Origin: Patescibacteria group bacterium
GTDB lineage: Bacteria > Patescibacteriota > Patescibacteriia > UBA1558 > UBA10009
NCBI GenBank assembly: GCA_018818425.1
Contig: JAHISB010000005.1
Location: 1-52,766, forward strand
Direction: 5' to 3'
DNA: 52,766 nucleotides
The notes beneath the pieces were generated by a model. That model made no database searches. It was not told where the DNA came from and saw only the letters and a list, made by a program, of their open reading frames with translations. The stretch's first letter is position 1. Every line of letters begins with the position of its first letter. A program made the position numbers and the translations under genes. This document shows, one piece after another, positions 6,904 to 9,665 of this stretch.

Positions 6904-7155
6904 TTATTTACATTTTGAACGACAACAATCCGGGATGGGCAAATGATAAATCTGGGTGGCTGTTGTCCAGGCGCTATTCCAGACAAATGTAGGCGAGTTA
7001 AGAATTCTCTGTAACAATTTTTGAGCATCGGTTTCTGGCGGAATTTCTGTAGGCGTAGGTTCTTCTATTTGTTCAGGTTCACAGATAACCGAAGGTTCAT
7101 AAACCTCTGGATCAGTTGGAAAACCAACGACTAACATTCTTCCTGTACATGTCAT
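6904..7155 (-). CDS. small hypothetical protein (83 aa), CCRSKC C-terminus
   Basis: MTCTGRMLVVGFPTDPEVYEPSVICEPEQ..., start preceded by AGGAGG at 7160-7165. Confidence 0.55.
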   Translation of the reverse strand: MTCTGRMLVVGFPTDPEVYEPSVICEPEQIEEPTPTEIPPETDAQKLLQRILNSPTFVWNSAWTTATQIYHLPIPDCCRSKCK

Positions 7156-7248: not shown

Positions 7249-7275
7249 AAGAGCGCCGGCTTGGCAGCCAGCGCC
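7249..7275 (-). terminator. terminator-like hairpin in leader of the 83-aa ORF
   Basis: minus strand GCGCTGGCT-GCCA-AGCCGGCGC followed by TCTTTAATT (weak U tract). Confidence 0.5.
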
Positions 7276-7306
7276 TATCTTTAAAATATTTTTAAAAATT
7301 AACTGA

Positions 7307-7390
7307 CTACCTTGCCAACGCAATATAAATAATAATCCAAATAATGGCTGGGTTAACGGAAAATAACTGATTTTTTATTATGGTAGTCAT
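7307..7390 (-). CDS. putative leader peptide (27 aa)
   Basis: MTTIIKNQLFSVNPAIIWIIIYIALAR*, just downstream of a consensus promoter and upstream of a terminator-like hairpin. Confidence 0.45.
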   Translation of the reverse strand: MTTIIKNQLFSVNPAIIWIIIYIALAR

Positions 7391-7401: not shown

Positions 7402-7429
7402 ATTATAGCAAAACTAAACAAGCTGTCAA
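7402..7429 (-). promoter_or_regulatory. consensus sigma70 promoter TTGACA-N16-TATAAT, minus strand
   Basis: TTGACA (7429-7424), GCTTGTTTAGTTTTGC, TATAAT (7407-7402). Confidence 0.8.
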
Positions 7430-7495: not shown

Positions 7496-7975
7496 TTATT
7501 GTTTTAAAATTTTTGTCAACTCTTTAATCAGTTCAGAACTGCCTCTTGCGCCTGCCAATCCTTCAAGGATAGACGCGTAAAGCGGTTCCTGAAGTTCGAT
7601 TTCCGTCCTGCCCAACTCGGTTTCTCCATCAAACAGCAATATTCTCACCACGTTACTGGTTTTGCGCAGATCATCAATCCAGAAACTTTCCCCGCATTCA
7701 TCATGCTTCCACATTCTATTTTTCTTGCTCCGCCTTAACCAGAATTCACGGTCAAGGCCTAGGATTTTTCCTTCTCGCATAATCTCATATCTTTTGCACC
7801 CGCACGGGAGCGCAAGAATATGATGGGGAACGGCAAGGTATTTACCCTGCATTTTTTTGGCTGATTCTGCCAGTAACCAGATTAGTAAGTTTTGTCTATC
7901 GGTTAATGGCCTTGTTAAGATTGCCCTTAATGGCGATGGCGGGTCGGGGGCGAAATTCTTCTTGCACCAGAACAT
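7496..7975 (-). CDS. hypothetical protein (159 aa) in operon with RlmN-like protein
   Basis: SD AAAAGGAGG before ATG; 18-nt gap from rSAM gene; CGC...HDEC cysteines. Confidence 0.7.
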   Translation of the reverse strand: MFWCKKNFAPDPPSPLRAILTRPLTDRQNLLIWLLAESAKKMQGKYLAVPHHILALPCGCKRYEIMREGKILGLDREFWLRRSKKNRMWKHDECGESFWIDDLRKTSNVVRILLFDGETELGRTEIELQEPLYASILEGLAGARGSSELIKELTKILKQ

Positions 7976-7993: not shown

Positions 7994-8896
7994 TTATCTG
8001 AACTTTTGTGTTGTTGTTAAATCGGCAGCTAACTGAGGGCAAGTTACTATACCACACCCATTATTGCCGACATCATTAGTGCCTAAAGGAGCATGGTAAG
8101 CAACCTCGAACCCTTTTTGCTTTAAAGCTATAAACCATTTCCTAACCAAATCGCTTGAGGGAGGGCTAAACCCGGGCGCATTGCCGAATTTTGAGCCGAT
8201 ATTCACGGAGATGTGGAAATATTCGGCGGGAGTAAATATCTTCCCCAGCTCCTCTTCTCCCAGGCCGATTTTCCCGCGATGCTCCGGCTTAACCAGAAGG
8301 TCAAGATATAATTTTCTTCCGGTTATTGAATGAAATTCCCGCCCAATTTCAGCGATCCGACTCAAGGTGATAAGTTTGATGTTGCTTTTTACACTCGCCA
8401 TTCTCTCTTTGTCAGTAAATCCCAGCAAAGAGAATTGCAGGCCTAAATTATGTCTTGAAGCCGCTTGTAACAGCAGACTTATGCTTTGCCGGCAATTAAC
8501 CCCTGCCGAGGAAATTATCATTCTCACTGCCGGCCAGTTTTTTTCTAATAAAGCCATGGCTGATAAAACCTCGTTGATATTCAAAGTTGGTTCGCCGATC
8601 CCTAAAAAAGAAACGGCGAAAAACTCTGAATTATCAGGGCTGATACCCTGCCTGCCTACAGCCAGTTCAACCAGATTAAGCATTTCCCTGCTTAAAAGGG
8701 AGCGCTTAAAATCAATCTGGTTTGAACCGCACATATAGCAACGAACCCCGCAGCCTATTTGCGTTGGGATGCAAACAACCCAATGCTTATCCCGCAAGCT
8801 TCTGGTATTGTCGCTAAACTCAACGACATTGCCATCGCCTAATCTAACAACATACCTTTCATATTCGTTGCCATGTATTAGCTTGATTATCTGCAT
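7994..8896 (-). CDS. RlmN/Cfr-like radical SAM protein lacking the N-terminal accessory domain
   Basis: CIPTQIGCGVRCYMCG (CX3CX2C plus upstream Cys), FLGIGEPTLN, NDVGNNGCG C-terminal Cys; start placed at Met with SD GGAGGTAAGGAGG. Confidence 0.8.
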   Translation of the reverse strand: MQIIKLIHGNEYERYVVRLGDGNVVEFSDNTRSLRDKHWVVCIPTQIGCGVRCYMCGSNQIDFKRSLLSREMLNLVELAVGRQGISPDNSEFFAVSFLGIGEPTLNINEVLSAMALLEKNWPAVRMIISSAGVNCRQSISLLLQAASRHNLGLQFSLLGFTDKERMASVKSNIKLITLSRIAEIGREFHSITGRKLYLDLLVKPEHRGKIGLGEEELGKIFTPAEYFHISVNIGSKFGNAPGFSPPSSDLVRKWFIALKQKGFEVAYHAPLGTNDVGNNGCGIVTCPQLAADLTTTQKFR

Positions 8897-9128
8897 TGGA
8901 TGCCTCCTTACCTCCCGATTTATATTATGTATCTCATGTATCATTGACAAAGAACAAAAATTTTGATATCAATACAAAAAGCGGTGTGAGCGCAATAACT
9001 CAATCTGTCCTTGCCGGGATTTATTGAATAAAAGCTTATGCCGCTTTTTGTATATTTTAAACTTGCTGATTTGTAAAGGTAGGGAGGAGCTTTAAAAAAG
9101 TTCTCAAAGCTCGTCCCTTGTATCATTG

Positions 9129-9293
9129 TTACCAATGAACTCGCATTACTTGTTCATAATGTTCGCCATAATCGACAACAACTGGCTCTCTTTTTCCCTC
9201 TGGAGTGATAGCAGTCTCGATAGGACTCTGGTCTCCATTTGTAGAACCTTCTGGTTGATCGTTTTTTTCGGCGTCCTCTGCTTCATGACACAT
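9129..9293 (-). CDS. small acidic hypothetical protein (54 aa)
   Basis: MCHEAEDAEKNDQPEGSTNGDQSPIETAITPEGKREPVVVDYGEHYEQVMRVHW*, SD AAGGAGG. Confidence 0.6.
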   Translation of the reverse strand: MCHEAEDAEKNDQPEGSTNGDQSPIETAITPEGKREPVVVDYGEHYEQVMRVHW

Positions 9294-9449: not shown

Positions 9450-9471
9450 AAAAAAGCCACCTATCTGGTGG
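9450..9471 (-). terminator. attenuator terminator hairpin
   Basis: minus strand CCACC-AGATA-GGTGG-C-TTTTTT; CCACCAGAT also complementary to upstream ATCTGGTGG (9529-9521). Confidence 0.65.
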
Positions 9472-9532
9472 TCTATCTATGATTATATTTTATATACTTA
9501 ATCGAGTCTGACTCGATAAACCACCAGATTAG

Positions 9533-9613
9533 CTAGCTAAAAAAGTAAAAAAACCAAAAAGCTTGATTTTGGATGATAATCTGACTCTGAATGTTGATTT
9601 CTTGACTAATCAT
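9533..9613 (-). CDS. putative aromatic-rich leader peptide (26 aa)
   Basis: MISQEINIQSQIIIQNQAFWFFYFFS* immediately upstream of attenuator segments. Confidence 0.65.
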   Translation of the reverse strand: MISQEINIQSQIIIQNQAFWFFYFFS

Positions 9614-9636
9614 AGTGGTTTTTTGAGATTGATATC

Positions 9637-9665
9637 ATCTTAGCAAATACTAAAATTGTTGTCAA
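9637..9665 (-). promoter_or_regulatory. sigma70 promoter TTGACA-N17-TAAGAT, minus strand
   Basis: TTGACA (9665-9660), TAAGAT (9642-9637), TGC extended -10. Confidence 0.75.

Follow-up and report, generated by a model that had tools for sequence, protein, structure and literature searches.

The minus strand of the window (that is, the whole stretch of 52,766 nucleotides analysed here, from an ultra-small bacterium of the Patescibacteria) carries, between positions 9665 and 9450, what is very probably a leader-peptide transcription attenuator sensing charged tRNA-Phe, a reading drawn from sequence comparison and computed RNA folds. The mechanism is a known one, found here in a new phylum and before unusual targets that do not make phenylalanine. 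Gene regulation in Patescibacteria has been little studied, and a search of the open full-text literature for leader-peptide attenuation in the Candidate Phyla Radiation, or for transcription attenuation in Patescibacteria, found no paper. A trp/phe-type attenuator layout with an aromatic leader had been proposed in an initial annotation of this DNA, and it is borne out by conservation, covariation, ribosome-edge folding and a positive control with Escherichia coli pheL. The leader recurs in G003 and G001, each from another genus of the same family (Komeilibacteria-type Patescibacteria). Its elements are:

9637 to 9665, minus strand: promoter TTGACA-N17-TAAGAT with an extended -10 TG, read from the sequence and kept in G003 and G001
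9605 to 9621, minus strand: segment 1, the start-codon region, which pairs with segment 2 before segment 3 exists (partial-transcript fold)
9533 to 9613, minus strand: leader ORF MISQEINIQSQIIIQNQAFWFFYFFS*, 26 codons, with homologous peptides in G003 and G001
9539 to 9559, minus strand: control codons TTT TGG TTT TTT TAC TTT TTT (F W F F Y F F), codons 19-25, read from the sequence
9515 to 9529, minus strand: segment 2, antiterminator 5' arm AUCUGGUGGUUUAUC, beginning 3 nt past the stop codon (folding)
9463 to 9477, minus strand: segment 3, antiterminator 3' arm GAUAGACCACCAGAU, overlapping the terminator 5' arm (covariation)
9450 to 9471, minus strand: intrinsic terminator CCACC-AGATA-GGTGG-C-TTTTTT, read from the sequence

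The promoter sits downstream of ndk and the ndk terminator, and the leader ORF, which ends in FWFFYFFS, has no Shine-Dalgarno sequence. Promoter, ORF and terminator lie where the initial annotation had placed them, as do the motifs CAGATTA (9583-9577), TAATCTG (9531-9525) and CCACCAGAT (9471-9463). The antiterminator that it had described between segments 2 and 3 is present and longer than claimed, forming a helix of 15 bp (9529-9515 with 9477-9463, one G-U pair); the terminator stem has 5 bp only, and its 5' arm is common to both structures. The pairing of CAGATTA with TAATCTG also exists in the window, but it is kept in neither G003 nor G001, and the start-codon region pairs better. CAGATTA was consequently rejected as segment 1: in a partial transcript without segment 3, the best partners are 9621-9605 and 9533-9518 (16 pairs), an arrangement found in G003 too and not in G001. 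Right after the terminator, a stretch of about 30 bases (9431-9401, CGCAAATCGTATATCGTGTATCGTTAATT-like) is repeated in the same genome (G000:C20, C38 and C42).

In the proposed mechanism, the transcript would start near 9630 and a ribosome would enter the 26-codon leader. Under scarcity of Phe-tRNA, the ribosome would stall in FWFFYFF (codons 19-25) and leave segment 2 free, whereupon 2:3 pairing would block the terminator and the polymerase would read into the genes for a 54-aa orphan, an RlmN-like protein and a 159-aa orphan. With plentiful Phe-tRNA, the ribosome at the stop codon would cover segment 2, and segment 3 would form the terminator. Actual termination, phenylalanine as the signal, the co-transcription of the three genes and the biological role are what we infer from this arrangement.

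A trp/phe-type, translation-dependent switch is supported by modelled folds of the isolated RNA at equilibrium, in which the ribosome edge was set 13 nt downstream of where the A-site codon begins and the RNA on its 3' side was folded. Antiterminator and terminator come out as mutually exclusive in these computations, and the position of the ribosome sets which one forms. With the ribosome stalled on Phe codons within codons 19-25 the probability of the antiterminator is 0.87-0.99, while at the stop codon that of the terminator is 0.98, and E. coli pheL, folded as a control, switches in the same way. Untranslated RNA at equilibrium sets the two apart, since that of the window prefers the antiterminator (probability 0.95) whereas that of pheL folds to the terminator. 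The off state in the window would thus depend on translation or on kinetic trapping by the 1:2 hairpin, which loses to 2:3 at equilibrium and might give kinetic termination without translation.

The arrangement is rare by chance. A scanner looking for a promoter, a short ORF with one dominant amino acid, a terminator and an overlapping antiterminator found the window leader as the only strong match in 322 kb of its own genome (window included), with an antiterminator score of 35 and the next at 20; in 3.6 Mb of simulated sequence no score was 25 or higher. The leader RNA folds at -49.3 kcal/mol, compared with -31.0 ± 3.8 for dinucleotide shuffles (z = -4.9). A plain DNA search, blind to structure, matched the leader in G003:C46 (71% over 231 query positions, E 1.5e-21) and in G001:C5 (72%, E 3.8e-17).

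The homologous peptides, MISQETNNQKQYFPQSKNFGFFFFFSP in G003 and MISQETKNQIFSQINNFGFFFYFT in G001, follow the pattern MISQE…F[WG]FF[YF]F (also given as MISQE...NF-G-FFF-Y/F-F), the Trp of the window being replaced by Gly in both. Common to all three sequences are the promoter hexamers, the TG, the start region, the peptide, the position of the stop codon, the antiterminator and the terminator; the spacer between the antiterminator arms is not conserved. The arms co-vary, with short ORF and complementarity maintained in both homologous loci: antiterminator pairs changed on both sides from A-U to G-C, from U-A to C-G and from C-G to U-A. Over seven model-fitted sequences, 89% of the antiterminator cells pair against 76% when shuffled, 12 double-sided changes compare with 3.8 after shuffling, and the pairing is lost when the partner strand is slid along. 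The three sequences are the cleaner covariation evidence, because they were found by DNA similarity and the seven-sequence alignment leans to structure. The Rfam model RF01859 (Phe_leader) aligns weakly over its full length (positions 1-125) with the window (26 bits) and G001 (28.9 bits), and with E values of 0.35-0.42 and scores below the gathering score of 55 they are not members by that test.

Similar leaders occur across the phylum. Covariance models run on 381 genomes of the class and 380 of the phylum, followed by inspection, gave 22 leaders (the first three included) with a clear peptide, a terminator and an overlapping antiterminator, for example MKHMQKNFFFFFFTPQDSVACL, MQQYNWKNFFFFIQQEGRLFCSA, MNYRINKINSWFFFFTDTEVG and the Leu-type MKQANNKNLLLSLLLLLPDRVACFDS. 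Model matches in which inspection revealed no convincing leader were left uncounted (e.g., L023, L024, L027-L033, L088, L092, L095, L097-L100, L105 and L113-L116). With the ribosome at the stop codon the terminator folds in all 22, and with the ribosome stalled the antiterminator dominates in most, being weak or failing in L025, L094 and L107; the folds of the wider set are not independent evidence, because the search model already held the stem and the tract. Promoter enrichment gives largely independent support, as most of the promoter falls outside the model: a promoter with at least 10 of 12 matching positions stands within 55 nt upstream of 15 of the 22 leaders, compared with 2.3% of shuffled upstreams. 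Shine-Dalgarno sequences are absent from 20 of the 21 leaders other than that of the window, and in about half only 7-10 nt lie between the end of the -10 hexamer and the leader ATG (such short gaps were noted in L022, L025, L026, L086, L087, L107 and L109-L111). With the -10 so close to the ATG, the leader mRNAs may be nearly leaderless, which suggests that leader peptides in this phylum are translated by leaderless initiation.

Phenylalanine is the residue common to the tracts of the Phe-type leaders; related leaders carry plain runs of F4-F7, and the window tract mixes Phe with Trp and Tyr. A Phe-codon run as the constant feature is as expected of a Phe-tRNA sensor and not of an antibiotic arrest peptide. 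Several leaders precede genes of the pathway, namely DAHP synthase (L106 and L107), prephenate dehydratase after a small ORF (L103 and the Leu-type L096) and chorismate mutase after an orphan (L026). Such genes are what a Phe sensor would be expected to control, and they speak for phenylalanine as the signal; for L103 the short ORF was seen, this leader being outside the set folded with the ribosome edge. The assembly of the window's genome amounts to 1.23 Mb and is 94.5% complete. Prephenate dehydratase, detected in 14 of 14 control genomes, was undetected in this not quite complete genome, and no such leader was found at its own pheST. For these two reasons the most likely role of the switch is to control accessory genes in response to scavenged phenylalanine, and it probably does not serve phenylalanine synthesis. 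An importing cell could in this way gauge its phenylalanine supply and turn on accessory genes during scarcity. Elsewhere in the phylum, Phe-type or mixed hydrophobic leaders (L022 and L101, G162:C10; L087, G147:C13) stand before GCS2-type (glutamate-cysteine ligase family) proteins and a PGM1_C-domain, ATP-grasp-looking protein, whose genes are possible amino-acid ligase genes under attenuation.

The genes past the attenuator in the window are:

9129 to 9293, minus strand: 54-aa charged orphan, the first gene, with the Shine-Dalgarno sequence AAGGAGGA
7994 to 8896, minus strand: RlmN/Cfr-like radical SAM protein of 300 aa (profile match and alignment)
7496 to 7975, minus strand: 159-aa orphan, the final gene before a terminator at 7473-7452

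The first of them, the 54-aa orphan, lies about 156 nt past the T-run and has no Pfam, PHROGs or PADLOC match. The natural start of the RlmN-like protein is probably the ATG at 8896 behind AGGAGG and not the TTG at 8950, and the gene may have its own promoter, a weak one at 8950-8922 (9/12). In an alignment with 15 RlmN proteins of the class it keeps the CX3CX2C cluster, the upstream Cys (C118-like) and the C-terminal Cys (C355-like). Its profile score of 57.9 bits compares with an equivalog cut-off of 290, the model match begins at position 82, and profile match and alignment agree that the N-terminal accessory domain is missing; a separate canonical RlmN is encoded elsewhere in the genome. 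No close relative of the RlmN-like protein turned up among 372 genomes of the class, nor among GTDB or viral contigs, and its single-sequence structure (mean pLDDT 41.6) was too poor for a fold search. PHROGs and PADLOC gave the downstream genes no phage or defence link but a weak phrog of unknown function for the RlmN-like protein.

The leader is followed first by a gene for a small Cys-rich protein with conserved CGE-I-W...G-C-NGC in G003, in G001 and in the more remote G087; in the window the 54-aa orphan and the RlmN-like gene take its place. A search of the genomes of G003 and G001 gave no match to the RlmN-like protein. The RlmN-like gene was thus rejected as the constant target of the leader. 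Of the suggestion in the initial annotation that antibiotic- or starvation-induced stalling induces an rRNA-modifying enzyme, the starvation half survives, and the antibiotic and rRNA-modification parts are unsupported because both related genera have the Cys-rich protein instead.

The aromatic tract might alternatively belong to a nascent-peptide arrest attenuator, in which a drug or metabolite would stall the ribosome on it and so induce the RlmN-like rRNA methyl synthase. Drug-inducible leaders of the erm/cfr type depend on drug-dependent arrest and, as here, place a short ORF before the gene for an enzyme of the 23S rRNA modification type; the protein downstream retains all catalytic cysteines, and the aromatic residues at the C-terminal end of the leader peptide, close to the stop codon, could contact the exit tunnel. 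Such arrest is nevertheless very unlikely, given that the leader is kept in relatives devoid of the RlmN-like gene, that the protein lacks the N-terminal domain of RlmN, and that a separate canonical RlmN is encoded elsewhere. The window differs from erm/cfr-type systems in its unconserved target and its amino-acid-specific codon run; the tract varies by F/W/G/Y swaps, and the related F4-F7 runs in some cases precede Phe-pathway genes. It is also unlikely, if less strikingly so, that any slowing over the W/Y/F tract, or uncoupled translation, gives read-through and makes the leader a general sensor of aromatic amino acids or translation rate: Trp and Tyr in the window tract and the equilibrium preference of the untranslated RNA would fit this, yet the Phe-type leaders share Phe, and the Trp is Gly in both relatives. 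Finally, the terminator could simply end stray transcription between ndk and the downstream genes, the ORF and the complementarity having arisen by chance; AT-rich intergenic DNA makes Phe-rich ORFs and hairpins common, and the locus was picked from a long sequence. This is scarcely credible for the sole strong case in 322 kb, unmatched in 3.6 Mb of simulated sequence, with promoter, peptide and compensatory pairs conserved in other genera.

Close counterparts of the window leader are known in E. coli. Like pheL, the leader of pheA, the window leader has a Phe-rich short ORF, an antiterminator 5' arm 2-3 nt past the stop codon, an arm shared by antiterminator and terminator, and the same ribosome-edge folding; pheA serves phenylalanine biosynthesis, unlike the genes downstream in the window. 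In pheM, the pheST leader, which controls PheRS, the aromatic peptide probably has a tract very similar to that of the window; pheST in the window's genome is without such a leader.

A second, Ile-type attenuator lies 2 kb downstream of the Phe-type one:

7402 to 7429, minus strand: consensus promoter TTGACA-N16-TATAAT, read from the sequence
7307 to 7390, minus strand: Ile-rich leader ORF MTTIIKNQLFSVNPAIIWIIIYIALAR*, with the homologue MKTTTKNTAFFAKLNNSAIIGIIIIIALVMVVS in G004
7252 to 7311, minus strand: Ile-type attenuator, antiterminator GGTAGTCAG (7311-7303) with CTGGCTGCC (7271-7263), terminator stem 7275-7252
6904 to 7155, minus strand: 83-aa orphan (MTCTGRMLVVGF...) downstream of this attenuator

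Its antiterminator arms are also given as GGUAGUCAG/CUGGCUGCC, and its terminator has a 10-bp stem with a poor U-run. In G004, a fourth genus, the homologue (L084 640-440, minus strand) has changed arms that still pair and a proper U-run, and it precedes another Cys-rich small protein. Ribosome-edge folding predicts the same switch in both. Since the Ile-type attenuator is conserved and folds as a switch, amino-acid attenuators before orphan genes appear to be recurrent at this locus. A broader proposal, which we put forward tentatively and at slightly less than even odds, is that amino-acid-auxotrophic Patescibacteria keep or repurpose Phe, Ile and Leu attenuators as gauges of scavenged or host-derived amino acids. 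These would switch on lineage-specific accessory genes instead of biosynthesis (small Cys-rich or charged proteins, an RlmN-like RNA methyl synthase without its usual N-terminal domain, GCS2-type ligases), and one such hub would be the pair of Phe and Ile attenuators that lie in tandem between ndk and a conserved structured RNA. A conserved Phe switch before non-biosynthetic genes of a probable phenylalanine auxotroph would show what dependent cells sense, and, by showing which orphan genes starvation turns on, it would hint at the functions of genes without homologues. According to a 2024 review, inducible expression for Patescibacteria is still to be developed (PMC11665869). The attenuator would be a natural regulatory part for the phylum.

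Two further elements were noted around these loci. In G004, a short ORF MNFLQQQIISTKSFWSNSCLLL is followed by a hairpin with a T-run and then by two small charged orphans (L084 1310-760, minus strand), an element that may be a third attenuator type, judging by its layout. The conserved structured RNA, about 210 nt long (GATTGGAGCTCTACAA...ACCCAGC...GGAACTTCCAATC) and with its own promoter, lies on the minus strand at about 6558-6345 of the window, 1040-830 of L006 and 1000-770 of L007; it has no Rfam match, is 6S RNA-like by eye, and shows both-sided changes in 14 of its 59 predicted pairs.
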